Shown: in pieces, positions 2,208-32,296 of the stretch | Layout: each line of letters begins with the position of its first letter | Position numbering within the stretch: the stretch's first letter is position 1 | Assembly: GCA_015484945.1 (NCBI GenBank) | Contig: WFUO01000045.1 | Span: forward strand, 1 to 32,786 | DNA length: 32,786 nt | Source of the DNA: Gammaproteobacteria bacterium | GTDB lineage: Bacteria; Pseudomonadota; Gammaproteobacteria; WFUO01 | Reading direction: 5' to 3' | Made by a program: the position numbers and the translations under genes | Notes under the pieces: model-generated | Databases searched by the model: none | The model's input: only the letters and a program-made list of their open reading frames with translations | What the model was told of the DNA's origin: nothing

Positions 2208-2909
2208 TCAGACGCGAATCTCACCATTGATGGCGGCGAGTACGGCCTGTGGGTCATCGGCACCGGTGATGGGCCGGCCGATGACGAGATAGTCGCTGCC
2301 GGCGGCGATGGCCTCGGCCGGGGTCATGATACGGCGTTGGTCGCCGCTGTCGCTGCCAGCCGGGCGAATGCCTGGGGTGACGAGGGTGAATCCCGGACCG
2401 TTGTCACGGCGCAGCATGCCGGCCTCGTGTGCCGAACAGACCACGCCGTCGAGTCCACTCTCACTGGCCAGCCCGGCCAGCCGCCGCACCATGTCGGCCG
2501 GCGCGCTATCAATGCCGATCTCGGCCAGATCACCCGCGTCCATGCTGGTCAGTATCGTGACAGCGATCAGCAATGGCCTGTCGGACCGTGCCTCGATAGC
2601 CTCCCTGGCGGCCTCCATCATCCGCCGCCCCCCTAGGGCATGGACGTTGAGCATCCACACGCCGAGGTCGGCGGCTGCCGCGCAGGCGCGCGCGACGGTA
2701 TTGGGAATGTCGTGGTATTTGAGATCGAGAAATACACGGAAGCCGCGTTCGACCAGTTCACCGACGAAGGCCGGGCCGCTGCGGGTGAACAGTTCCTTGC
2801 CGACCTTGAGGATACAGCTGTCGGGCGTGACGCGCTCGATGAAGGCGCTGGCCTGCTCGGCCGAGGGATAGTCAAGTGCGACGATGATGCGTGAGGTGTT
2901 GTGGTTCAT
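2208..2909 (-). CDS. pyrF: Orotidine 5'-phosphate decarboxylase
   Basis: PyrF catalyses the last step of UMP synthesis, decarboxylating OMP. The 233-residue protein has the family marks: [10 protein letters not shown] near the N-terminus, the catalytic Asp-x-Lys-x-x-x-Asp set in [11 protein letters not shown] (D62, K64, D67), VTPGIRP, and the phosphate-binding end [13 protein letters not shown] chose the ATG at 2909 because AGGA lies 5 nt before it and [14 protein letters not shown] fits the family start. An upstream in-frame ATG at 2939 would add ten residues encoded by repeat sequence. The gene follows lapA-lapB in the same direction, as in enterobacteria. Confidence 0.95.
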
Positions 2910-2975
2910 ATTGTCCTGCTCATATTTTTGCCCCCTCATCCTGACCCTCTCCCCCCCCAGGGGTGAGGGGATCAG
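2907..2975. repeat. Fourth copy of the GC-rich palindromic repeat, upstream of pyrF
   Basis: Positions 2932-2970 carry CCCCTCATC facing GGTGAGGGG, a close match to the copies in the rfaH-comEA gap. The similarity to the 1311-1355 copy extends left through TTGTCCTGC, so about 44 bp are shared. Read on the minus strand, this shared edge supplies the AGGACAA that serves as the pyrF ribosome binding site. Confidence 0.6.
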
Positions 2976-2988
2976 AAGAAGATATCAC

Positions 2989-4161
2989 CTATTCGGCCTC
3001 GACGCCCTGGATGGGCTTGACGCTGTTCCATTGCTTGCAACCCGGGCACTGCCAGTGCAGGGATTTGCCGGAAAAACCACACTGGGTGCAGCGGTACACC
3101 GGCTTGCCCTCGAGCAGCTTGCTGGTCAGTTCGTCGAGAATATTCAGATTGTTGCGCGCCTCGCCCTTGCTGTGCTCGAGGCTCAGCTCGATGACCCATT
3201 TCAGGCCCTTGACCGAGGGACGGCGGCCAAGCTGTTCGATGACGAACTTCATCGCCTCCTTGTCGCCATTCTGTTTGCGGATCTGCTCGGCCACGGCGAG
3301 GATGGCGGAAATGCCGGTATAACGTGGCAATATCGACATCAGGTAACTGACGATGCCTGTCGGGTCGCCAAGACGCTCGTAACAGGTCTCCAGTTGTGGC
3401 AGTACCTCGGGCAGGAATTCGATGTCCTGGTCGGCGACCCGCTTGTAGGCCTTCAGGGCGGCCTTGATGTCGCCACGCTTGAGTTCGATATTGCCTCGCA
3501 GGATGCTGGCGCGTACGCAGTTGCGATCATAACCCCCTGCACGCTTGAGCATCTGCATGGCGTTGCTCAGGTCACCGTTATCGAGCGCCTGCTCTGCCAT
3601 CTCGCAGTAGTACTGGGCGATCACATCATTGTGTGCCTTGCCCGAGACCTCACCGAGCTGGCGGGTGACGGTGATGGCCTTGTCCCAGTCCTGCTCCTGC
3701 TGGTAGATGTCCACCAGGTGCTCGAGCGCCCTGCGCGTGTAGGCCTTGCGTTCGATGAGCTCCAGGAACAGGCCTTCGGCACGATCGAGCACACCGGCGC
3801 GCATGTAGTCCTCGGCCAGTTCCAGCAGTGCGTGGGTGCGTTGTTCATGACTGAGTGTGGGCCGGGCGATGAGGTTCTGATGAATGCGGATGGCCCGATC
3901 GACCTCTCCGCGACGGCGAAACAGGTTGCCCAGTGCCAGGTGGGTCTCGACCGTTTCGCTGTCAACCTCGACCATGCGAATGAAGACCTCGATGGCCTTG
4001 TCCGGTTGTTCGTCCAGCAGATAGTTCAGTCCCTTGAAATAGTCGATGTTGAGATCCTTGCCGCGCTTGTGTCTGTCCTGTTCCCTGGCAAGGCTGCGCC
4101 GCGCCGCAAACCAGCCAGATGCGGCAGCGACCGGCAACAGCAACCACAGCAATTCCTGCAT
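2989..4161 (-). CDS. lapB: LapB (YciM), LPS assembly TPR protein with rubredoxin-like zinc domain
   Basis: LapB is an inner-membrane adaptor that controls LpxC degradation by FtsH and so balances lipopolysaccharide synthesis. The 390-residue protein starts with one membrane segment (ELLWLLLPVAAASGWFAA). Tandem TPR helices run from about 45 to 330; one example is VETHLALGNLFRRRGEVDRA. It ends in a rubredoxin-like metal site, C358-x2-C361 and C372-x2-C375. Length and architecture match E. coli LapB. The start codon overlaps the lapA stop by one base (TGATG), so the two are translationally coupled, and pyrF follows. Confidence 0.95.
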   Translation of the reverse strand: MQELLWLLLPVAAASGWFAARRSLAREQDRHKRGKDLNIDYFKGLNYLLDEQPDKAIEVFIRMVEVDSETVETHLALGNLFRRRGEVDRAIRIHQNLIARPTLSHEQRTHALLELAEDYMRAGVLDRAEGLFLELIERKAYTRRALEHLVDIYQQEQDWDKAITVTRQLGEVSGKAHNDVIAQYYCEMAEQALDNGDLSNAMQMLKRAGGYDRNCVRASILRGNIELKRGDIKAALKAYKRVADQDIEFLPEVLPQLETCYERLGDPTGIVSYLMSILPRYTGISAILAVAEQIRKQNGDKEAMKFVIEQLGRRPSVKGLKWVIELSLEHSKGEARNNLNILDELTSKLLEGKPVYRCTQCGFSGKSLHWQCPGCKQWNSVKPIQGVEAE

Positions 4162-4451
4162 CAGTCGGTGTCCTTGATCGGCAGATTGCGCAGGTTCTTC
4201 ACTTCCTTCTCGGTGGTATGGATCTGTCGGCGCAGGCGGGCGTTCTGCCCCTTCAGCCGCAGGATCAGAAACAGACTTACGACAATGCCAAGGATGACAC
4301 CGATGGCAAAGGCAATCACGATGACCAGCGACAGGGCCATGCTGGTAGTACCGAAGTAGTAGTCGAGCTTGACGGCATCGGCATTGAGAACGGCAAAGCT
4401 GATGCCCAGAAGGATGACGATGATGAAGAAAACCAGTCCCAGGATACGCAT
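4161..4451 (-). CDS. lapA: LapA (YciS), DUF1049 inner-membrane protein
   Basis: This 96-residue protein has two membrane hairpins (about 3-24 and 41-66) joined by a short loop with the family pattern LNADAVKLDYYFG. A charged cytoplasmic coiled tail follows (KGQNARLRRQIHTTEKEVKN). LapA is the small partner of LapB in LPS assembly control. It lies 77 bp after ihfB and is coupled to lapB by a one-base overlap. Length and topology are standard for the family. Confidence 0.93.
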   Translation of the reverse strand: MRILGLVFFIIVILLGISFAVLNADAVKLDYYFGTTSMALSLVIVIAFAIGVILGIVVSLFLILRLKGQNARLRRQIHTTEKEVKNLRNLPIKDTD

Positions 4452-18218: not shown

Positions 18219-18929
18219 TCAGGTGCCTGTCTCCTGTTGCGGCACGTCCAGGCGTTCGAGCCGGTAACCATGCAGGTAGATGGCGCTGAGCTTCCAGTTG
18301 TCGAGCTCGGCCAGGCCCAGCTTGTTGCGCAGACGGCTGATATGGGTATCCACGGTACGGGTGTTGATATCGGGATTGCGCCCCCATACCGATTCCAGGA
18401 TATAACCGCGTGACAGCACCCGGCCGGTATGCCGGAACAGGAACAGCGCGAGGTCGAATTCCTTGTGTGTGAGCTCGACGGGATTGCCGTCACGCAGGAT
18501 CCGGCGCGCTGACGGATCGATCGTGAATGGCGCCATTTCCAGCACCTCCTGGGTATCGGCCTGTGGATTGACGCGCCGGCCCAGGGCGCCAACGCGGGCG
18601 GTCAGCTCCATGCTGCGGATCGGCTTGACCATGTAATCGTCGGCACCGGCCTCGAGCGCGGTGACGATGTCCTGCTCCTCGTCTCTGGCGGTGACGAACA
18701 GGATGGGGATATTCCATTCCATGTTCTCGCGCACCTTGCGCAGCACCTCGATACCGTCGATATCCGGCAACATCCAGTCCAGGATCAGCATATCGAAGGT
18801 ATCATTGGCCAGGTTGCGCAGCAGGGCCTTGCCCTCGCTGAACACTTGCACGCTATGACCGGCCTTTTCCAGCCAGTGTTGAAGCAGTTCCGCCTGGGAT
18901 GGATCATCCTCGAGAACGACAATGCGCAT
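18219..18929 (-). CDS. Orphan OmpR/PhoB-type response regulator
   Basis: This 236-residue regulator has a receiver domain with acidic pair D8/D9, phospho-acceptor D51 in LILDWMLPD, T80 and K102 (MVKPI). A winged-helix DNA-binding domain follows from about 140 (FTIDPSARRILRDG, then LTHKEFDLALFLFRHTG, and TVDTHISRLRNKLG). The ATG at 18929 gives a normal receiver start; an upstream ATG at 19046 would add about 39 residues across the divergent promoter region. AGGAG lies upstream with 11-nt spacing. No histidine kinase is adjacent. Its place between mtnA and mtaD hints at control of MTA salvage, but that is speculation. Confidence 0.9.
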   Translation of the reverse strand: MRIVVLEDDPSQAELLQHWLEKAGHSVQVFSEGKALLRNLANDTFDMLILDWMLPDIDGIEVLRKVRENMEWNIPILFVTARDEEQDIVTALEAGADDYMVKPIRSMELTARVGALGRRVNPQADTQEVLEMAPFTIDPSARRILRDGNPVELTHKEFDLALFLFRHTGRVLSRGYILESVWGRNPDINTRTVDTHISRLRNKLGLAELDNWKLSAIYLHGYRLERLDVPQQETGT

Positions 18930-19006
18930 TTCCGCTGTTTCTCCTGTCGAGACTGCATTCCCTGTGGCCAGGTGGCCGTAGATATACAGTAGCGTCCAAC
19001 CAAGTG

Positions 19007-19027
19007 TTATAGTGTTAGTTACTATAA
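19007..19027. promoter_or_regulatory. Symmetric element TTATAGT-N7-ACTATAA in the divergent regulator/mtaD gap
   Basis: Perfect 7-bp arms (19007-19013 and 19021-19027) flank a 7-nt spacer between the response regulator and mtaD. Each arm contains TATAGT on one strand, so the element may be two opposed -10 boxes, a regulator site, or both. No convincing -35 was found on either strand. Confidence 0.4.
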
Positions 19028-19048
19028 ACTGAACCAAAATAGCCATTT

Positions 19049-20392
19049 ATGCAAGTCATCGACGAGCTGATCCATGCCCGCTGGGTGATCCCGGTGGTGC
19101 CGCGCAAAACCGTCCTCGAGCATCACGCCATCGCCATCCACGATGGACGTATTGTCGATATCCTGCCTTCTTCGATCGCGCAGCAACAGTATCAGCCCGG
19201 GCGTTCCACCCTTCTCGACCGTCACGCACTGATACCCGGCCTTGTCAATGCCCATACGCATGCCGCGATGTCGCTGTTCCGGGGGCTGGCCGACGATCTG
19301 CCGCTGATGCAATGGCTCAATGCGCATATCTGGCCGGCCGAACAACGTTGGGTCGGCGAGGAATTCATCATCGCCGGCGTCCGTCTGGCCATGGCCGAGA
19401 TGATTCGTACCGGCACCACTTGCTTCAACGACATGTATTTCTTTCCGGACGTTACGGGACGTACGGTGGCCCAGGCGGGCATGCGTGTTGTCACCGGTCT
19501 CATCGTCATCGACTTTCCCACCGTATGGGCAGCCGATGCGGACGAATACATCGAAAAGGCCATTGCCGTTCATGACGAGTTCCGCGACGATCCGCTGGTT
19601 CACACGGCCTTCGCGCCACATGCGCCATATACCGTCTCCGACGGGCCGCTGCAACGTATCCAGACCCTGGTCGGTGAGCTCGACATACCGGTGCACATGC
19701 ATGTGCATGAAACAAATGACGAAATCGAACAGGGCATGAAACGGTACGGCAAACGCCCGCTGACGCGACTGCATGAACTGGGCCTGCTGGGGCCGTCACT
19801 GGTAGCGGTACACATGGCCCGCATCGATGACGATGAAATCGAGCTGACCGCACAACAAGGCGTCAATGTGGTCCATTGCCCGGAATCGAACATGAAACTG
19901 GCCAGTGGCGCCTGCCCGGTACAGCGCCTGCTGGATGCCGGTGTCAACGTGGCTTTGGGCACCGATGGCGCCGCGAGCAACAACGATCTCGACATGTTCG
20001 GCGAGATGCGCAGCGCCGCCTTGCTGGGCAAGCTGGCAGCGCAGGACGCCAGCGCCCTGCCCGCCTGGCAGGCACTGGAGATGGCCACCATCAATGGCGC
20101 GCGCGCCCTGGGGCTGGATGCGCTCATCGGCAGTCTGGAACCGGGCAAGGCCGCCGATATCGTTGCCGTCGATCTGAATGATGCAGGCCACCAGCCGGTC
20201 TATCAGCCGGTCTCGCAGCTCGTCTATACCAATGCCGGGGCATCGGTCACCGATGTCTGGGTCAATGGGCATCGCCTGTTGCGCGAGCGGGTGCTGACAA
20301 GTCTGGACGGTGATGCCATACTCGAACAGACAGCCCAATGGTGTAGAAGAATAACAACCGGCACGATGCCGGATGACACAATGCAGACCTGA
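19049..20392 (+). CDS. mtaD: 5'-methylthioadenosine / S-adenosylhomocysteine deaminase
   Basis: This amidohydrolase of the TRZ/ATZ group has metal ligands H69 and H71 in NAHTHAAMSLFRG, a third His segment VHMHVHETNDE, a further His in VHCPESNMKLASG, and the catalytic Asp in LGTDGAASNNDLD. The closing GSLEPGKAADIVAVD is typical of the family. MtaD deaminates methylthioadenosine to methylthioinosine, which after phosphorolysis feeds MtnA; the divergent neighbour mtnA supports this over a generic chlorohydrolase. The ATG has no clear Shine-Dalgarno, so translation may depend on a short leader. Length is 447 residues, as expected. Confidence 0.93.
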   Translation: MQVIDELIHARWVIPVVPRKTVLEHHAIAIHDGRIVDILPSSIAQQQYQPGRSTLLDRHALIPGLVNAHTHAAMSLFRGLADDLPLMQWLNAHIWPAEQRWVGEEFIIAGVRLAMAEMIRTGTTCFNDMYFFPDVTGRTVAQAGMRVVTGLIVIDFPTVWAADADEYIEKAIAVHDEFRDDPLVHTAFAPHAPYTVSDGPLQRIQTLVGELDIPVHMHVHETNDEIEQGMKRYGKRPLTRLHELGLLGPSLVAVHMARIDDDEIELTAQQGVNVVHCPESNMKLASGACPVQRLLDAGVNVALGTDGAASNNDLDMFGEMRSAALLGKLAAQDASALPAWQALEMATINGARALGLDALIGSLEPGKAADIVAVDLNDAGHQPVYQPVSQLVYTNAGASVTDVWVNGHRLLRERVLTSLDGDAILEQTAQWCRRITTGTMPDDTMQT

Positions 20393-20445: not shown

Positions 20446-21300
20446 ATGAGTAATTTCGAAATCAACGATTCCTGGTTGCGGGACTGGGCGATGCGTTGCG
20501 GCATCATGCTGATCGTGGCCTTTTTGCTGCCAATGGTCACGCCATTCAAGACCTTCTGGTTCTGGCATATGATCAAGGCCGCACCGGTAGGTACCTTGCT
20601 GCTGCTGGGTGTGGGTGTTGCCTGCGTGGCACTGACGACGGTGGCCAAAGACAAGCTTGCCGGCAACCGGCTCGCTGTGGTGCTGCTGGTGCTCTCGTTG
20701 TTGCCACTGCTGTCCGGCATGGGTGGCTCGTCCAATATGGCCACGATGGGCGCGATGGGCAGGGGCGGCATGCCGATGGCCGGCGGCGCCAATTTCGGTG
20801 CGATACTGCTGCTGCTGAGCCTGTGCTCGATCGCGATCGGCAACCATCTGTCCAAGGTACACACCCAGGACCAGTACCCCCGGCTGATGGTTGGCATCGG
20901 CGGTATCGTGCTGCTCGTTCTCATGATCCTGCCCATTGCCGGCCGTTCACCGATCACGATGTTCTTCAGCGGATTCATGTGGAGCCGCGGCTGGCCGGTG
21001 TTGCTCATCCTGGCCGGTGTCATCGCCTATGGCGTCATCGCTGTCATGCAGTTTTTCAAGATCCGCGGCGATATGTCCGAACTGCTCAGCCTCGTTGCCC
21101 GTGGCCTGCTGGTCGGCGTTCCGGCCGTAGCCTTGTTCTATGTGCTGGTCGGCCCGATACCATTCTTCAGCGGTCTGATGATGGTGCTCAAGATGATCCT
21201 GACCGTGTACGGGATCGTACTGCTGTTCGTCACCAGTCTGACCGCGGTCATCGAATACAATGTGGGCTCAGGCAACCAGGGAGCCGAAACATCATCCTGA
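20446..21300 (+). CDS. Uncharacterised 8-segment membrane protein, single-unit member (A) of a 1-2-1 cluster
   Basis: I do not recognise this family. The 284-residue protein has about eight hydrophobic segments (roughly 14-33, 46-66, 73-91, 117-133, 148-168, 185-206, 221-241 and 252-272). Between the third and fourth is a Gly/Met-rich loop (91-116) with six Met. Marks shared with the third gene are DSWLRDW (8-14), the pair LAG after segment 2, NHLS (133-136), FSGFMW (174-179) and SLTAVIEY (264-271). The ATG at 20446 is preceded by GGAGGAGC at 5-8 nt, a strong site. It follows mtaD by 53 bp. No signal peptide, enzyme motif or known transporter signature is visible. Confidence 0.85.
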   Translation: MSNFEINDSWLRDWAMRCGIMLIVAFLLPMVTPFKTFWFWHMIKAAPVGTLLLLGVGVACVALTTVAKDKLAGNRLAVVLLVLSLLPLLSGMGGSSNMATMGAMGRGGMPMAGGANFGAILLLLSLCSIAIGNHLSKVHTQDQYPRLMVGIGGIVLLVLMILPIAGRSPITMFFSGFMWSRGWPVLLILAGVIAYGVIAVMQFFKIRGDMSELLSLVARGLLVGVPAVALFYVLVGPIPFFSGLMMVLKMILTVYGIVLLFVTSLTAVIEYNVGSGNQGAETSS

Positions 21301-21302
21301 AC

Positions 21303-21326
21303 AAGCCGGTGTATGCACACCGGCTT
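21303..21326. repeat. Perfect 10-bp inverted repeat with 4-nt loop between membrane genes A and B
   Basis: Arms AAGCCGGTGT (21303-21312) and ACACCGGCTT (21317-21326) pair fully, starting 3 nt after the stop of gene A. There is no T run on the plus strand, so a classical terminator is unlikely; an mRNA-stabilising or processing hairpin is possible. Confidence 0.5.
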
Positions 21327-21376
21327 CAACCAAGGCCTGACATCGGCTAGAGGCAGACACGGAAAGGTAACAACTC

Positions 21377-23068
21377 ATGGATGACAGATACCGGCAGCGG
21401 ATCCGCATTGCGGCTGTTCTGATGATCCTGTACGGCTTGTTGCCCGTATGGACACCTGACGGTTATCACTGGGTATGGCAATCTCCCCCCAGGCCGACAA
21501 TCTTCTGGCTGGGAACCGGTCTGCTGCTGCTTGCCCTTGCGCACAGGCTGGATACGTTTCGCCTGACACAGGCAGCCGTGGTCATTGCGCTCGGCATGCT
21601 TGCACACGGTCTGAGCGAAACCGCACAGGTGCTGAGATTCCTGTCAATGCTACGCTCAGCCCAGGGCCTGACAGTGGTTTTTTTTATGCTGTTGGTCTTT
21701 GCCCTCGTGCTGGCCGCGGCCAACCGGGTAGCCACACAGAACGCGCAATCACTTCTGATCACAGGCCTGATTGTCGTATGCGGCATTGCGCTGCTGATAT
21801 TGCTTTTCACCCCGATCACGACTGGCCGTCACAGCCGGATCATGCTGACCCGAATCCTCGTCACCGCCCGGGCCTGGCATGAGGCTCCGGTCGTGCCGCT
21901 GTTCATGGGTACCTTGTTGCTGTACGCTGTCATTGCGCTCATCCACCACTGGCTGCCAAAACCGGATGTGCATCGCTGGCTGAACTGGCTGGGGTTGTTG
22001 CTCGTCATTCTCAGCGTCATCAGTCTGGTGGTACTGCAATACCGCCTGTTGCTTCGTGCTTCCATCAGTGATATCGGCGCGTGGCCGTTTCTGCAGTCCA
22101 TTCTCTATGTACTGACCGGCATGCTGGCCTTCGTTCTGCTGGCCGTCAATGGCATTGGCGGCTGGCTGGCTCACAGACTGGCCTCGGGTGAGATACAGAA
22201 GCCGCCACGCCTGTCGGAAGCCTGGTTGCGAAACAGGCTGGGCGATGCGCTGCTGATGCTCGGGACGATGATACTGCTGGCCAGCCAGTGGCGGCTGTTC
22301 TGGGGCTGGATCGTATCCGGTCATGGGCCGGGTGAGGCGCTCTACCCCCTTGTCCTGATCGTCATACTGAGCTTGCTCGTGTGGTATTTTCGCGATCACG
22401 TGATACGCCTGTCGGCGACCATGTTCAGTGTGGTACTGGCCTATCTGGTGCTGGAACTGGTACGCACGCCATACTATATGAGCTGGTTTCCCCAGTTGTA
22501 CCAACTGCGTTCGTTTGGCTTACGCCTTGCACCGGGTTTTTTATATACCGTTGCCGCCAGCCTGCTGGCCGCGACCGTCATCTCGGCAACCGCCCTGTTG
22601 CCCGATACAGAAAACCGGCATTGGCGGGTGTTGGCAGTGCAGGCCATCAGCAGTCTGGCCCTGCTGTTCACTCTGTTCCATCCGTTCTGGGAGACCTCAC
22701 TGTATGGTTACGCGAACATGCCTGGCTATGGCCTGCCGCCACAACTGGCCTGGCTGGCGCTGCTGAACCTGCTCGCCTTGCTGGCGGGGCTGACCCTGGT
22801 GCACCTCTTCTTTCCACTGGGCCGTTTGTGGCACTGGCTGGCATCCCGCCTCCTGCCCTGGGGTGGGTTGATCGTCTGGCTCGTCATTAGCGCCAGCTAT
22901 CGATTCTGGCGAGGCGATTATCTGCTGGGCATAACGACCCTGATCAACAAGCTCGCCGGCGGGCTTTGGCTGCTTGGCCTGCTGATCAGTCTGGCCTGTA
23001 CACTGGCGGTTTTGCTGCATGCCTGGATAAACCGGACAAAACACGGCCAACAGGATGCGACGCTGTAG
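21377..23068 (+). CDS. Uncharacterised large membrane protein, apparent fused duplication of the unit (B)
   Basis: The 563-residue protein is almost entirely hydrophobic, with about 16 predicted segments. By eye it divides into two similar halves, about 1-280 and 281-563, each the length of the neighbouring single-unit proteins. Half two opens EAWLRNRLGDALLML, like DSWLRDW in gene A. In half one AAANRVATQNAQSLLITG (113-130) aligns with the NHLS region of A. Half two ends with LINKLAGGLWLLGLL, close to LVINKNLSGFALLILLL of gene C. Half one keeps the TM1 pattern LPVWTPDGYHWVW seen as LPMVTPFKTFWFW in A. The start has AAAGG upstream. The gene follows A by 76 bp. Function is unknown; a transport or scaffold role would be guesswork. 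Confidence 0.8.
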   Translation: MDDRYRQRIRIAAVLMILYGLLPVWTPDGYHWVWQSPPRPTIFWLGTGLLLLALAHRLDTFRLTQAAVVIALGMLAHGLSETAQVLRFLSMLRSAQGLTVVFFMLLVFALVLAAANRVATQNAQSLLITGLIVVCGIALLILLFTPITTGRHSRIMLTRILVTARAWHEAPVVPLFMGTLLLYAVIALIHHWLPKPDVHRWLNWLGLLLVILSVISLVVLQYRLLLRASISDIGAWPFLQSILYVLTGMLAFVLLAVNGIGGWLAHRLASGEIQKPPRLSEAWLRNRLGDALLMLGTMILLASQWRLFWGWIVSGHGPGEALYPLVLIVILSLLVWYFRDHVIRLSATMFSVVLAYLVLELVRTPYYMSWFPQLYQLRSFGLRLAPGFLYTVAASLLAATVISATALLPDTENRHWRVLAVQAISSLALLFTLFHPFWETSLYGYANMPGYGLPPQLAWLALLNLLALLAGLTLVHLFFPLGRLWHWLASRLLPWGGLIVWLVISASYRFWRGDYLLGITTLINKLAGGLWLLGLLISLACTLAVLLHAWINRTKHGQQDATL

Positions 23069-23233
23069 ACATAGACGGGTTCAGGACAGGAAAGCACCGA
23101 ACAGTTCATGTTTGAATCATCGATGTTTAAAGATGATCCTGGCAAAGCCTGGGAACATGGGACGGTTTCACTACCTATCTGAGTAAACAACCATCGAATG
23201 CAACCTCGTTTCCGGACACTGAAACCAATCCTG

Positions 23234-23262
23234 TTGACCAGTCTCGGGGTAATTGATAAGTT
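23234..23262 (+). promoter_or_regulatory. Candidate promoter for membrane gene C
   Basis: TTGACC (23234-23239), 17 nt, then TAAGTT (23257-23262), about 55 nt before the gene C start. The 248-bp B-C gap holds no other supported feature. The long gap suggests gene C has its own transcript. Confidence 0.4.
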
Positions 23263-23316
23263 CCAGGCTGAAGCTACTGAAGGCTTGTTTTTCACCTTTG
23301 CAAGGAGGCTATGTGT

Positions 23317-24174
23317 ATGGATGCCACCGAATCCTGGCTGAAGAAATGGGCGCTGATCGGCGCCATCATGCTGCTCACTGGTTTTCTTTTTCCCGTATTT
23401 GGCCGCAATGGCGTCCATGGATTCTGGAGCATGTCAGCTCATAACTGGTATGACTCTGTCATCACAATGAGTTTCGGTATTCTGGTTTTGTTCCTGCGAC
23501 CAAGACTGGCTGGCAAGGCCCTTGCCTGGCTCATACTGATCGGCATGCTGGCCATCCTGGGCCTCGAAGTCACAAAACTGCTCAATATCAATTCTTTCAG
23601 TATCCCGAGGGGGCTGACGAAAGTACCGATACTGATTATGACCCTGCTGCTCTATATCAGTATCGTGCTGATCGCCATCTGCAACCATTTGAGCAGACAT
23701 ATGCCCCAGGCCAGAGGCCCGCGAATTATTCTGTTCTTGTCCAGCTTCACCATCATTGCACTCTATATCATTCCATGGTTGCGAAAGCCGCTGATCAGCA
23801 TCGTGTTTTCCGGCAGACTCTGGGATATGGCGCCTATGATCGTTATCATGTTCGCCGTACAGTTCATCTACGCTCTAATCGCAATCTTTCGGAATGGATT
23901 CAAAGACCTGTCACTGAATATCCGTATGATCAGCGTCTTCAATTGGGTGCTGATATTCGTCTATGCCGGGGTGTTCTACAGCTTGTCAATTCAACGGGGC
24001 GTTTCACCGGGAACAGCGTTATCTCTGGTTATCAATAAAAACCTTTCCGGTTTCGCCTTGCTGATACTGCTACTGGCCAGCCTCACAGCCGTGATCGAAT
24101 ACGCCATGAAACGACGGCAGCCGTCCGCAACGAATCCGCCACCCGCCATGGCCACAAACGAAGCTGGAGCCTGA
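23317..24174 (+). CDS. Uncharacterised 8-segment membrane protein, single-unit member (C)
   Basis: This 285-residue protein is a paralogue of gene A. Shared marks in the same order are ESWLKKW (5-11), RLAGKALAW, ICNHLSRH (121-128), FSGRLWD (164-170) and SLTAVIEY (255-262). About eight membrane segments are predicted, with a polar Pro-rich tail after 263. I chose the ATG at 23317 over 23311: AAGGAGG ends 8 nt before 23317 but only 2 nt before 23311, and the resulting N-terminus matches gene A. The Gly/Met-rich loop of A is absent. The DNA looks slightly more AT-rich than genes A and B. It ends 25 bp before ubiG. Confidence 0.85.
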   Translation: MDATESWLKKWALIGAIMLLTGFLFPVFGRNGVHGFWSMSAHNWYDSVITMSFGILVLFLRPRLAGKALAWLILIGMLAILGLEVTKLLNINSFSIPRGLTKVPILIMTLLLYISIVLIAICNHLSRHMPQARGPRIILFLSSFTIIALYIIPWLRKPLISIVFSGRLWDMAPMIVIMFAVQFIYALIAIFRNGFKDLSLNIRMISVFNWVLIFVYAGVFYSLSIQRGVSPGTALSLVINKNLSGFALLILLLASLTAVIEYAMKRRQPSATNPPPAMATNEAGA

Positions 24175-24199: not shown

Positions 24200-24919
24200 A
24201 TGACTGAACAGGCACATACGAACGTCGATCATGCCGAAATAGCGAAATTCGAGGAGCTGGCCTCACGCTGGTGGGACCCGAACAGTGAGTTCAAGCCGCT
24301 GCACGATATCAACCCGTTGCGACTGGACTACATCGACCAGCGCGCGGGGCTGAAGGGCAAACGGGTAGTCGATGTCGGCTGTGGTGGTGGCATCCTTTCG
24401 GAAGGCATGGCCCTGCGTGGCGCACAGGTCATGGGTATCGACATGGGCGAGGCGCCCTTGTCGGTGGCGCGCCTGCACCTGCTGGAATCGGGCGCCGAGG
24501 TGGACTATCAGCAGACCACGGCCGAACGTCTGGCCGATGAGATACCTGGCCGGTTCGACATCGTTACCTGCCTGGAGATGCTCGAACACGTACCCGATCC
24601 CGCCTCGGTGATAGCGTCCTGCGCCAGGCTCGTCAAACCGGGCGGGGACGTGTTCTTCTCTACCATCAACCGCAACCCCAGGTCCTACCTGTTTGCCATC
24701 ATCGGCGCCGAATACCTGCTGCGCCTGCTGCCACGGGGCACGCACGATTATCGCAAGTTCATCCGTCCGTCAGAACTCGAGGCCTGGTCACGTGACGCCG
24801 GGCTCGAATTTCTCGATATCACCGGCATGAGCTACAACCCGCTTACCCGCCGTTACCGGCTGGGTGACGATACCGGTGTCAACTATCTCGTCCATGCCCG
24901 CAGACCGGCCGCGGACTGA
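24200..24919 (+). CDS. ubiG: Ubiquinone biosynthesis O-methyltransferase
   Basis: UbiG performs both O-methylations of ubiquinone synthesis. The 239-residue SAM-dependent enzyme has the N-terminal [17 protein letters not shown] and [15 protein letters not shown], then motif [10 protein letters not shown] (56-64), [11 protein letters not shown], and the membrane-associated [13 protein letters not shown] region. The [12 protein letters not shown] segment matches the family. The start ATG is 25 bp after gene C. It overlaps the phosphatase gene by about 26 bp and begins a compact plus-strand group. Confidence 0.97.
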
Positions 24920-25593: not shown

Positions 25594-26847
25594 ATGAACC
25601 CGATCCTTGTCATCCTGCTCGCCCTGGCCGCGTTTGCCGTCGGCTGGCTGGCCGCCCGCCTGCATGCCGGGCGCGAGATCGCGCGCCTGCGCGAGGTGCG
25701 CACCGAACTGCAGACCCGGTTGCAGATGACCGAGGACAGCGGCAAGGACCTGGAACAGGCCCTGGAAACCACACGCAAGGAGATGGCCAGCCTGTTCAAC
25801 CAGCTCTCCAGCGAGGCCCTGCGCCACAACAACGAGACCTTCCTGAAACTGGCGCAGGAAAACCTCAAGCAGTTCCAGGTCAAGGCCGAGGGTGACCTCA
25901 AGCACCGCCACAGCGCCATTGAGCAACTGGTCAAGCCTATCCAGGAAACCCTGGCCAAAACCGAAAAGCAGTTGCACGAGATCGAAAAGGCGCGCGAACA
26001 CGCCTTCGGCGCCCTGCACCAGCAGATCGAGAACATGAACCGTATGCAGCAACAACTGCAGCAGGAGACCGCCAACCTGACAAAGGCCCTGCGCAAGCCG
26101 GAGGTACGCGGACGCTGGGGCGAGATGACTCTCAAGCGCCTCGCGGAACTGGCCGGCATGGTCGAACACTGTGACTTCAGTGAACAGACGCACACTGACA
26201 CCGGTGAAGGGCATCTGCGTCCTGACATGGTGGTACGCATGCCGGACGCACGTGTCATCGTGGTGGATGCCAAGACACCACTGGATGCCTATCTCGAGGC
26301 GGTGGAGGCCACCGACGATCGTCATCGCGACGAAATGTTGCAGCGCCATGCCGCCAATGTGCGTAAACAGGTCAAGGACCTGTCCGCCAAGGCCTACTGG
26401 CAACAATTCAGGGAATCGCCGGATTTCGTCGTCATGTTCATTCCCGGCGAGCAATTCCTGTCGGCGGCACTGGAAAAGGATCCTGCCCTGCTCGAAGACG
26501 CCATGAGCCGCAAGGTCATTCTCGCCACACCTACCAGCTTCGTTGCCTTGCTACGCGCGGTTGCGTTTGGCTGGCGCCAGGAATCCATGGCTCGTAATGC
26601 CGACCGTATCCGCGATCTGGGTCAGGACCTGTACAAGCGGCTGAATACCTTTGTCGAGCACATGACCAGGCTCGGCAAGTCGCTTGGTAGCAGTGTGGAA
26701 ACCTATAACAAAGCGGTTGGCTCACTGGAGCGTAGCGTGCTGCCAGGCGCGCGCAAGATGGAGGAACTGGGCATCCAGACGCGCAAGTCCATCGAGGAGC
26801 CCGACGCCATCGACAAGCAGCCGCGCGGGATTCACAAGGACACATGA
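25594..26847 (+). CDS. rmuC: RmuC-family DNA recombination protein
   Basis: The 417-residue protein has an N-terminal membrane helix (ILVILLALAAFAVGWLAA), a long coiled coil from about 25 to 175, and then the RmuC core. Core marks are PEVRGRWGEMTLKRLAELAGM, the nuclease-like DMVVRMPDARVIVVDAKTPLD, and MFIPGEQFLSAAL. E. coli RmuC limits inversion at short repeats; the biochemical activity is not settled. The ATG at 25594 lies 4 bp after the phosphatase stop. It overlaps the next gene by ATGA. Confidence 0.93.
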   Translation: MNPILVILLALAAFAVGWLAARLHAGREIARLREVRTELQTRLQMTEDSGKDLEQALETTRKEMASLFNQLSSEALRHNNETFLKLAQENLKQFQVKAEGDLKHRHSAIEQLVKPIQETLAKTEKQLHEIEKAREHAFGALHQQIENMNRMQQQLQQETANLTKALRKPEVRGRWGEMTLKRLAELAGMVEHCDFSEQTHTDTGEGHLRPDMVVRMPDARVIVVDAKTPLDAYLEAVEATDDRHRDEMLQRHAANVRKQVKDLSAKAYWQQFRESPDFVVMFIPGEQFLSAALEKDPALLEDAMSRKVILATPTSFVALLRAVAFGWRQESMARNADRIRDLGQDLYKRLNTFVEHMTRLGKSLGSSVETYNKAVGSLERSVLPGARKMEELGIQTRKSIEEPDAIDKQPRGIHKDT

Positions 26848-27674
26848 ACCCGATCAGCTATTGTGAAGAGAAGGCGGCCCCGTCCGGCTCGGACAACTAC
26901 TATGCGCTGCTCGGTCTTGCCCCTGAAACCCGCAACGCCCTGCTGCCACTGATGGCGTTTGCGTGCGAGGTTTCCACGGTCCCGCGTGAGTGCCACGATA
27001 CCGACGTTGCCATCAGAACGCTGGACTGGTGGCGGCAACAGGTGGCTGCAGTCTATCGGGGCGATGCCTCACATCCCGTCTGCCAGGCCCTGCTGCCAGT
27101 GATTCAGGCCCACGACCTGCCCGACGCATGGTTCATGGAAATCATCGATGGTCATGCTATGGACATCGGCCGGGAAACCCCGTTCGATCGCCATGACTTG
27201 CAACTCTACCAGCAGCGCACCGCCAGCACCCTGTGCCTGATGCAGGCGGAAATCACCTGCCCGGGCTCGCGAGAGGCGCAAAAATTCGCCGCACGCGCCG
27301 GAAACGTCATCGCCGGCGTGAGGGATATCCAGATGCTTGGATATGATGTTCGCCTGGGCCGGCACTACCTGGACAAAGAAGTACTTACGCAGCACGGCCT
27401 TGACGCCAGTCAGCTTTATTCACCGGTAACGCCCGATGCGCTCGGCAGGCTGCTAGCGCAACAGGCCCAGCTGCTACGCAGCAACGGAAAAGACCTGATC
27501 AGCACCCTCGACCGTGGCCAGCGCGTACAGCTGCGTTACCTGGTGACTCGCCTGCGACTGTCATTACGACTGCTGGAGCGGATCGCCGACGATGGTTTCC
27601 GGGTGATGGAACATCAGATCCACCTCACGCCTCTTGGCAAATGGTGGATCGCCTGGCGCGGCCGTTGGTCATGA
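26844..27674 (+). CDS. Squalene/phytoene-synthase-fold protein lacking the first Asp-rich motif
   Basis: The 276-residue all-helical protein follows the layout of the squalene/phytoene synthase family. The helix with the first Mg-binding motif in active enzymes (DDxxD) here reads EVSTVPRE (42-49), with no aspartate pair, while the following DVAIRTLDWWRQQV is kept. The second motif region is partly kept: VRDIQMLGYDVRLGRHYLDKE (159-179) has D161 and D168. This resembles NDUFAF6-like members that assist respiratory complex I assembly and lack catalysis. A similar non-enzymatic role is possible here but unproven. It overlaps rmuC by 4 nt and precedes the SDR gene by 58 bp. Confidence 0.75.
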   Translation: MNPISYCEEKAAPSGSDNYYALLGLAPETRNALLPLMAFACEVSTVPRECHDTDVAIRTLDWWRQQVAAVYRGDASHPVCQALLPVIQAHDLPDAWFMEIIDGHAMDIGRETPFDRHDLQLYQQRTASTLCLMQAEITCPGSREAQKFAARAGNVIAGVRDIQMLGYDVRLGRHYLDKEVLTQHGLDASQLYSPVTPDALGRLLAQQAQLLRSNGKDLISTLDRGQRVQLRYLVTRLRLSLRLLERIADDGFRVMEHQIHLTPLGKWWIAWRGRWS

Positions 27675-28536: not shown

Positions 28537-30246
28537 TCATTTGCATTTGCCAAGCTTGCACTTGCCCGACAGGCAACGATGCCCTATTCCGACACCAAAG
28601 CCACAACTCGCCCCCTTGGGCAGTTTGTCACGACATTGATTCTCTTTAAGGTCCAATCCCTTGTCGCACCACTGGTTCCTGCCGCAATCACTGTCACGCT
28701 TGCATACACACCGCTTGTTGGAATTGCATTTCCCTGTCTTGCATTCGAGATCGATCTTGCATGAACTGCCTGCCGACTTCGATGAAGGCGTATAGCATAT
28801 ACCCGATGTCTGGCCATCCTGGGGCCGCCATTTGGAACATTTTCCGGAAACACATTGATCATCTCCGGTACACGCTTGCCAGTCAGGTTTCTTGCTGATA
28901 CACCTGTTCCTGCTCAGATTTCCCAATCCTTTCTTGCAGTACTGGCCCGAAGCGCAATCAGCATTCAAGCTGCATTCGTGCGCCTCCTTGCATGAACCGG
29001 CGATACATCTGCCACTCAGGCATTGCTGGCTCCTGGTACACGCCGCAAAGACCTGTTTTTTAGCCTTGCACTGATTACGCCCAATGGTCAGCGTCCCCTT
29101 GTCACAATAGTTGCCTTGCCCACAATCACTGTCCTTCTTGCAACTCGGCGGCTTGCCTATGGCGTATCGTCTGGTCACAATCCACGGATAGACTGCCTTG
29201 GCGCCATTACGCCACTCATCAAGTGTTGTGCCTTCAGATGCCCATTGCGTGCACATGATATACATCCATCCACCGGTACGTTTATTACAATCACGTTGCG
29301 TCCTTGACCAGTCGGGCCCCCAGCCGTACTCATCGTCCAGCCCCATCCAGTGACCGAATTCATGGCCAATGACATGCGCCGGGATCGCGCTGTACATGGG
29401 CCGCCACTTGAAGACCCAGCGCTTGTAGGATGTCCTGTGCCTTGGTCTGAGATTCATGCGGATATTCCAGATCAGCTTCCCCTTTTTCCAGGCATTTCTC
29501 TGGGCCTCACTCCCCTCTCCCAGATCGAGAAGCACCGGCTCTATCCTGAATCCGGGTCGATCCCAAACACGTTTGAGCGCACGCGCAAAAAACTGTCTCA
29601 AGTGCACCAGGATATTGATACCGCGCACATTCTGGGAACGATAGACACGACAAGCCTCTTCACCTCTGTTGACGAGATCGGTGCCTTTCTGTTTGCTACT
29701 GGTACGCACGGGTATGTAACCGAGTGAAACATCCTTGCCATTTGGATCGAATACGGTGCCGCCTTCCCTGCACAGGCGGTTCAATTCCCGGTCGCCCAGA
29801 TCATTGACAAGCTGCATGGGTATATCAATCTTGTCGCGCTTTCTTGTCGGCCAGAAGAACCGCATCGGAATGGTTACGATCCAGACGCCTTTCTCGCGCC
29901 TCAACTGATATGCATATCTGATAGGAGCCGTCGAATAATAGGCATACCTACCCGTAATATAAACAGCCGGAAGATCATCGGCAAACCGATGCCCGGCATT
30001 TATCGCCTTCTCTATCTTTCCTCCTTTGCTGTCACGCTTCCTGTTACAGGTTATGACATCTGCATTGTATGAACGAAGACCGATATAATCAGGACTGGTG
30101 TTTGGCGCAGGCGTAACCAGACTGGTATCCCGCTCCAGGAGACGCGCCTCCTGGAGCGCCCTGTCCGTGGCAGCCTTCTTGCAGAAATTGGCACTGGCTG
30201 AAAACGCCAGCGTCATCAGCACCAGCAGCAATGACCATTTTTTCAT
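28537..30246 (-). CDS. Secreted metzincin-like metalloprotease with three Cys-rich modules
   Basis: The 569-residue product starts with a signal peptide (MKKWSLLLVLMTLAFSASA, then Asn). A region of about 270 residues of unknown fold leads to HEFGHWMGLDDEY (295-307), an HExxHxxGxxD zinc site. A possible Met-turn, YIMC, follows with Met at about 331. From about 369 to the end are three imperfect Cys-rich repeats with the pattern DxDC-G-x3-C...CxSGxC, spaced like Dickkopf-type or adhesive modules. The ATG at 30246 has AAGGA 7 nt upstream; a longer start at 30303 lacks a signal peptide. The DNA is visibly more AT-rich than its neighbours, suggesting acquisition. Substrate is unknown. Confidence 0.75.
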   Translation of the reverse strand: MKKWSLLLVLMTLAFSASANFCKKAATDRALQEARLLERDTSLVTPAPNTSPDYIGLRSYNADVITCNRKRDSKGGKIEKAINAGHRFADDLPAVYITGRYAYYSTAPIRYAYQLRREKGVWIVTIPMRFFWPTRKRDKIDIPMQLVNDLGDRELNRLCREGGTVFDPNGKDVSLGYIPVRTSSKQKGTDLVNRGEEACRVYRSQNVRGINILVHLRQFFARALKRVWDRPGFRIEPVLLDLGEGSEAQRNAWKKGKLIWNIRMNLRPRHRTSYKRWVFKWRPMYSAIPAHVIGHEFGHWMGLDDEYGWGPDWSRTQRDCNKRTGGWMYIMCTQWASEGTTLDEWRNGAKAVYPWIVTRRYAIGKPPSCKKDSDCGQGNYCDKGTLTIGRNQCKAKKQVFAACTRSQQCLSGRCIAGSCKEAHECSLNADCASGQYCKKGLGNLSRNRCISKKPDWQACTGDDQCVSGKCSKWRPQDGQTSGICYTPSSKSAGSSCKIDLECKTGKCNSNKRCVCKRDSDCGRNQWCDKGLDLKENQCRDKLPKGASCGFGVGIGHRCLSGKCKLGKCK

Positions 30247-30352
30247 TTTTTGTTCCTTGATATGGAGACAGTCAGCCCAGGATTGACAGGCCAGCCTTAC
30301 CAATATCTTTCAAAATCGTGGTTAATTGCCTTACGGAAGAAAAATGCGCGGA

Positions 30353-32296
30353 TCAGTCGATATCTGCCAATAGCGGTGGCATGGGGCAGTCGATACTGGC
30401 GGATATGGCGCGCAGGAAAGCGATACCGGCGCCACTGACCTTGCCATCCCAGGCCAGTGTACCGACCAGCGCCTTCAGCAAGCGCGGCTTGACCAGAGGT
30501 TTGAGCTGATCGAGACGGGAAATGGCCGCATCCAGTGCAGGCAACGTGAGTTCCGCTTCCGGCTGCAGATTAATGTTTGACAGCCCGGCCCGGTTTGCAC
30601 CCTCGCGAAATGCGGTGGCCATGCCTGCAGCGTCAGCATGCTCGAGACCGGCGGCGAAAGACAATAATATCGCAACCTCTCTGGCCACGGTGTCCAGGCT
30701 GTTAAAACGGGCCGCAAGATGACGGCGCAGCCCATGTTGCAATTCAAGCGGGTGCAGCACCAGACGCACGGTGACCCACTCGTGGAAATCCACCTTGCCA
30801 TCGGTATCGATCAGGGCCTGGACATTGCCACGCCATTCCTCGAACTGGGACTTTGATTGCTGTCTCAACGCGCCAGGCACCAGCTCCAGCAGGGACAATA
30901 CCTGCTCATCATCCAGAGTGGCCACCAGGCCGGTGATCTCACGTGTGGTTTGCAATACTTCGGGCAATGCCCTTGCCTCGAGGATTCGCCACTGACGCAC
31001 ACGGATCTTCTCATCCTTATGCAACAGAAGCGCGTAAACCACGGCACGCGCGCCCCAGGGGTTGCGCGCCTCGTCGAGCAAGCGCTCCGGCAACGAGGCC
31101 ACTTGCTCCCTTGCCCGCTCCACGTGCCCGGCTTGCGGGTTGCCAATGGCGTCCACGGCCTCCAGGGCCTGTGCGACTGTGACGCCACCCATTACCGCCG
31201 CCGCCTGACGCGCGTGTTTCTCCTGCGCCGCAGTACGGCGTTGTTCTTCCGTCTCAGCAGCCAGATCGACCCTTTGCAGTGGTTTGAGATAGCGGCCATC
31301 CCAGGAGGGATCCAGGCGCAGGATTCTTTCTTCAAGCGGCGGGTGGGTGGCCAGCAGGCCACCCAGAAAATGCGAGATGCCCTCGGCGAAATAGGCATGA
31401 CTGTACTCTTCTGCCGACGGTGTCATCAGCACCGAACCGGACTCCGCACCACCAATGCGCTTCAGCGCGTTGGCGATCCCGGCATTGTTGCGTGTGAACT
31501 GCACCGCCGAGGCATCGGCGAGGTACTCGCGCTGACGGCTGACCATGGCCTTGATGACATTGCCAAAGAAGTGGCCGATGGAACCGATCAGGAACAGACC
31601 CAGACCAAACAGCAACGCCCCGCCACTGCCACGTCCACGATGCAAATGACGATGGGAATGGCTCGCCGAGCGCATCAGGTAGCGCCCGGTCAGCGCAATG
31701 ATCAGGATGCCGTGCAGCAGGCCCGTCAAATGGATGTTCAGGCGCATGTCACCATTGAGGATGTGACTGAACTCGTGGCCGACCACGCCCTGAAGTTCGT
31801 CGCGTGTGAGCGATTCCAATGCTCCACGGGTGATTCCGATCACGGCATTGTCGATGCGAGTACCCGCGGCAAACGCGTTGATACCGGATTCCTCGAGCAG
31901 ATACACCGGGGGAACCGGAATACCTGATGCGATCGACATTTCCTCGACGACATTGAGCACCTTGCGGTGCGCGGGATCCTTGCTGTCCATCGGTACCAGC
32001 CGACCACCCAGTAATTCGGCAACGTTGGCGCCACCACCGGACAAGGCGACCATCTTGATCAGAGAACCACCAGCAACCACCAGCACTACGGCCGCAGCCA
32101 CCTGCCAGGCCAGCTTGGGATCGATGCGTTCAAGGGAAAAACTGCCATCGGCAACGGCATAGGCATTGTTGAACGAAAAGGCGATCGCCACAAACAGGAT
32201 CGTCAGGCCCACCAGGCACGCAACAGCCAGCACGAACAGCAGTATGAGTATGGCCGTGTGCTTGCGTGCCTTGTCCTGGGCCGAGAAAAAGTTCAT
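30353..32296 (-). CDS. M48 (HtpX-like) membrane metalloprotease with TerB-like C-terminal region
   Basis: The 647-residue protein has two N-terminal membrane segments (about 14-40 and 64-86) and the zinc site HEFSH at 174-178, with the third ligand E257 in QREYLADASA. Further segments lie at about 191-206 and 227-248, separated by a His-rich SHSHRHLHRG. This is the HtpX/M48 layout. The C-terminal 350 residues are extra: helices with DTDGKVDFHEW and, at the end, TLAWDGKVSGAGIAFLRAI ending CPMPPLL, which resembles a TerB-like domain. It follows lemA by 22 bp. M48-LemA pairs are common and probably work together in envelope quality control. Confidence 0.9.
   Translation of the reverse strand: MNFFSAQDKARKHTAILILLFVLAVACLVGLTILFVAIAFSFNNAYAVADGSFSLERIDPKLAWQVAAAVVLVVAGGSLIKMVALSGGGANVAELLGGRLVPMDSKDPAHRKVLNVVEEMSIASGIPVPPVYLLEESGINAFAAGTRIDNAVIGITRGALESLTRDELQGVVGHEFSHILNGDMRLNIHLTGLLHGILIIALTGRYLMRSASHSHRHLHRGRGSGGALLFGLGLFLIGSIGHFFGNVIKAMVSRQREYLADASAVQFTRNNAGIANALKRIGGAESGSVLMTPSAEEYSHAYFAEGISHFLGGLLATHPPLEERILRLDPSWDGRYLKPLQRVDLAAETEEQRRTAAQEKHARQAAAVMGGVTVAQALEAVDAIGNPQAGHVERAREQVASLPERLLDEARNPWGARAVVYALLLHKDEKIRVRQWRILEARALPEVLQTTREITGLVATLDDEQVLSLLELVPGALRQQSKSQFEEWRGNVQALIDTDGKVDFHEWVTVRLVLHPLELQHGLRRHLAARFNSLDTVAREVAILLSFAAGLEHADAAGMATAFREGANRAGLSNINLQPEAELTLPALDAAISRLDQLKPLVKPRLLKALVGTLAWDGKVSGAGIAFLRAISASIDCPMPPLLADID

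Follow-up and report, generated by a model that had tools for sequence, protein, structure and literature searches.

Gene layout between mtaD and ubiG

The window, a 32,786-nucleotide stretch of gammaproteobacterial DNA, carries three consecutive genes, here called A, B and C, between an mtaD-type amidohydrolase gene (19049-20392, +) and ubiG (24200-24919, +; TIGR01983). Gene A (20446-21300, +) encodes 284 residues, B (21377-23068, +) encodes 563 and C (23317-24174, +) encodes 285; the positions, lengths and motifs that an earlier note on this DNA had given for them all proved accurate. A plausible Shine-Dalgarno sequence precedes each gene. That of A, GGAGG, lies 8 nt upstream of the ATG at 20446, and the AAGGAGG in front of C favors the ATG at 23317 over 23311 as its start. 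The intervals along mtaD-A-B-C-ubiG measure 53, 76, 248 and 25 bp, all five genes are on the same strand, and no plus-strand terminator-like site was found between them. A, B and C are real genes and, judging from this layout, are probably co-transcribed with mtaD and ubiG.

Hydropathy analysis revealed eight predicted transmembrane (TM) helices each in A and C. B, in which 13 are clear, has roughly double that number, and its low-confidence structure model is helical nearly to its end. Positive charge, counted by eye, clusters at the N-terminus and in three loops, those following TM2, TM4 and TM6, an arrangement suggesting that the N-terminus faces inward. An internal 4+4 TM repeat within each unit, an idea prompted by P..W after both TM1 and TM5, was rejected when the profile test proved negative.

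Other features were also recorded in the window. An OmpR-type response regulator gene (18219-19046, -) has mtnA and mtaD on either side, and no adjoining sensor kinase gene was noticed. A squalene/phytoene synthase family gene (26844-27674, +) lies immediately downstream of rmuC. The gene at 28537-30303 (-), adjoining an M48 peptidase gene (30353-32296, -), has a G+C content of 0.52, below that of its surroundings. In its secreted product a zinc-metallopeptidase-like motif, HVIGHEFGHWMGLDDEYG, precedes cysteine-rich repeats for which Pfam Dickkopf_N gave a match (E 2.4e-9). At 1347-1367 there is a perfect palindrome, CCTCTCCCCTATGGGGAGAGG, where none is expected by chance; it is probably a dispersed repeat element or a terminator. 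An open frame of 491 aa at 2884-4359 (+) was discarded as spurious, being antisense to lapB (2989-4161, -) and having no family match.

Relationships among A, C and the two halves of B

The earlier note had proposed that A and C are related, and direct comparison bore this out: BLASTP aligned them at E 5e-15, with 26% identity over 199 aligned columns, and a search of the host's own genome with A retrieved A and C only, the latter at E 5.8e-16 and 29% identity. Both proteins contain a WLRDW/WLKKW motif, NHLS (residue 133 of A, 123 of C), FSGxxW (174 and 164) and SLTAVIEY (264 and 255). Compared as DNA, A and C are notably alike in their first 52 bases alone (73%), so the duplication is not recent.

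The middle protein had been described as two such units joined end to end. This held for B1, the N-terminal unit (residues 1-275; 21377-22201, +). A matched the N-terminal half of B at E 2e-7, a family HMM built from A, C and two outside relatives matched residues 1-275 at E 5.6e-13 (best of 200 shuffles, 0.28), and hhalign gave B1 a probability of 93% against the family; C compared with B1 alone is marginal (E 0.005; z 4.9). The profile matches of A, C and B1, and of the outside relatives D and E described below, are significant and span most of the unit, and on these comparisons we regard A, C and B1 as three firm units of one family.

The same check was not significant for B2, the C-terminal half (residues 276-563; 22202-23068, +), which yielded nothing significant against the family in pairwise alignment and a probability of only 0.3% by hhalign, within the range of shuffles. 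Such shuffle-like scores would be expected if B consisted of B1 joined to a polytopic C-terminal domain from outside the family, leaving three firm units only. When the family profile was aligned end to end, however, B2 scored -55 (z 4.2), above every one of 103 null windows taken from 46 other polytopic proteins (mean -117, sd 15, best -82) and above its own pattern-preserving shuffles, which reached at most -77; z was 3.1 once B1 was omitted from the profile. Moreover, B2 has the length of a unit and opens with SEAWLR (EAWLR at B residue 281), the counterpart of the family's DSWLR motif, and its first 55 residues, from LSEAWLRN, resemble the N-terminus of A (z 4.0). LINKLAGG, at residue 522 and 42 residues before the end of B, lies where C has VINKNLSG, 48 residues before its own end (z 2.6). 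Fusion to an unrelated domain is thus rather unlikely. Since B2 beats all the null windows end to end and starts with the SEAWLR/DSWLR counterpart, it is probably a fourth, strongly and fast-diverged unit of the family, a grading that stops short of proof because the controls are few and we built the null ourselves. A match to PF17270 (DUF5336), confined to B2 (E 0.004-0.007) and composition-like, was rejected as an assignment, as it covers half of the model and reaches 17.2-17.9 bits against a gathering score of 28.6.

That A, B and C are unrelated membrane proteins, alike only through hydrophobic composition, might be suggested by their transmembrane composition and the low pairwise identity among units (19-29%), yet this is barely credible and is refuted for A, C and B1 by comparison with shuffles that keep the hydrophobic/polar pattern (z 18 for A and C, 13 for A and B1) and by identical motifs in the same order.

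Distribution of the family and history of the locus

As the earlier note had supposed, the family is not a recognized one: no match to A, B or C exceeded the curated cut-offs of Pfam and NCBIfam, none was found among PADLOC anti-phage defence profiles or PDB sequences, and the best PHROGs phage-family hit was short and weak (E 0.07). Our literature search found nothing relevant on the family. When 369 genomes of the class were searched with a two-sequence profile, D and E were the only full-length or near full-length matches, and a later five-sequence profile recovered no relative beyond them. Full-length matches were likewise absent from a 399-genome sample of the phylum and from 205 genomes belonging to another order (relatives of G007); these samples overlap, so the searches took in some 950 other genomes at the most. 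No close relatives were found in genome contigs, viral contigs or plasmids. The partial matches at L007-L009, L014, L015, L101-L105, L108 and L109 were dismissed as chance, being short, weak, single stretches, and the sequences of L007-L009, inspected in full, are other proteins.

D (G001, L005:1465-2343, -; 292 aa) and E (G158, L006:1468-2358, -; 296 aa) are unannotated and come from one AT-rich gammaproteobacterial family, in which two of the three genomes examined have the gene. They are full-length homologues with the same TM order as the window units, and D's W..KWA N-terminus and E's FNGxxW recall the motifs of those units, although identities to A, C and B1, and to each other, are only 16-24%. 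Unlike the window units, D and E occur as one single gene per genome at unrelated loci of about 0.40 G+C: D adjoins a GGDEF-EAL gene and E comes after alr-radA. A 758-aa protein (L097:10869-13145, -), for which Pfam and PADLOC gave no match, is encoded directly upstream of D in G001 and has hydrophobic N- and C-terminal segments. The duplication history envisaged earlier is supported, since three homologous units lie in tandem here and exist elsewhere as single genes only.

We then compared the junction itself across genomes. Among 80 named loci around ubiG, mtaD was also seen in 68; the mtaD-ubiG gap is -22 to 322 bp in 67 of these, the exception being L083, with a partial mtaD match, and none of the named mtaD-ubiG loci encodes a relative of A, B or C. 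The tight spacing elsewhere, set against an interval of 3.8 kb in the window, indicates that the trio is a lineage-specific insertion or expansion. Deducing its function from the mtaD-ubiG neighborhood was abandoned, since D and E lie elsewhere in genomes that keep mtaD and ubiG adjacent without them (gaps of 48 and 73 bp). No RNA family or tRNA was detected in the window, and a tRNA-linked insertion was therefore rejected. The host is a MAG-like draft of 1.81 Mb in 65 contigs, 76% complete, whose nearest relatives among the genomes searched are related at class level only; its UbiG is nearest, at low resolution, to uncultured gammaproteobacteria near Thiogranum.

Base composition sets C apart, with a G+C content of 0.51 versus 0.59 in A and B and a GC3 of 0.64 in surroundings of about 0.6 G+C and 0.71-0.83 GC3. 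A five-sequence tree joins C with D (87% bootstrap), although its branches are saturated. Together with the 248-bp gap, these features fit a separate arrival of C better than a simple local duplication, and an AT-rich lineage such as that of D and E might have donated C by horizontal transfer, with C landing beside distant paralogues. We nevertheless consider this unlikely, because the best match of C by identity is A (28.5%, against 24.0% to D), a chance landing next to paralogues is improbable, and the tree comprises five saturated sequences.

Our preferred reading, with a probability of roughly 0.7, makes A, B and C tandem paralogues built from inner-membrane units, each about 285 residues long with eight TM helices. 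Two units would have joined end to end to give B, whose second unit then diverged strongly, and the trio would have been inserted at the mtaD-ubiG junction. The family is best read as a set of undescribed, patchily distributed inner-membrane proteins with eight predicted TM helices and an N-in orientation, duplicated and fused in this lineage.

Possible role and assembly

Conserved positions in the family are W, P, G, N, H and aromatics at helix ends, and no set of catalytic-looking charged residues is common to its members, from which we infer a non-enzymatic membrane role. Conservation appears to fall on belts of aromatic residues or proline that follow TM1 (P..FW) and TM5 (FSGxxW), on what is predicted to be the outer face, and on the ends of TM4 and TM8 (NHLS, SLTAVIEY). 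With such non-catalytic conservation, the units are most likely packing or channel-like subunits. Each unit can presumably associate with its own kind, which relatives that occur alone would need to do; the window copies may have specialized and assemble with one another.

The complex of defined stoichiometry suggested in the earlier note is a tentative and rather unlikely possibility; in it A, the two units of B, and C would form a defined hetero-oligomer of pseudo-four-fold symmetry, in which the fusion fixes the position of two units. The tandem, same-strand, closely spaced genes, the single, double and single unit lengths, and the retention of three divergent copies in one genome are consistent with it. 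D and E, however, exist alone, the units share only 19-29% identity, and AlphaFold models on thin alignments are unreliable (mean pLDDT 58 for A and 51 for B) and too weak for a comparison of folds; a fold search with the low-confidence A model found nothing (best E 0.39). It is a speculative and improbable extension that the units constitute a new membrane fold family and that A, B1-B2 and C sit in one pseudo-symmetric complex, their order fixed by fusion, within an mtaD-ubiG operon of one gammaproteobacterial lineage.

This analysis defines a family missing from curated libraries, and the trio marks a lineage-specific insertion at an otherwise stable gene junction. A paralogue set within one genome, with single copies and a probable fused double, should help to show how oligomeric membrane proteins diversify. 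Other membrane families exist as single and fused-double copies through duplication and then fusion of a polytopic unit; A, B and C resemble them in this duplication and fusion, although no sequence relation to them was found.
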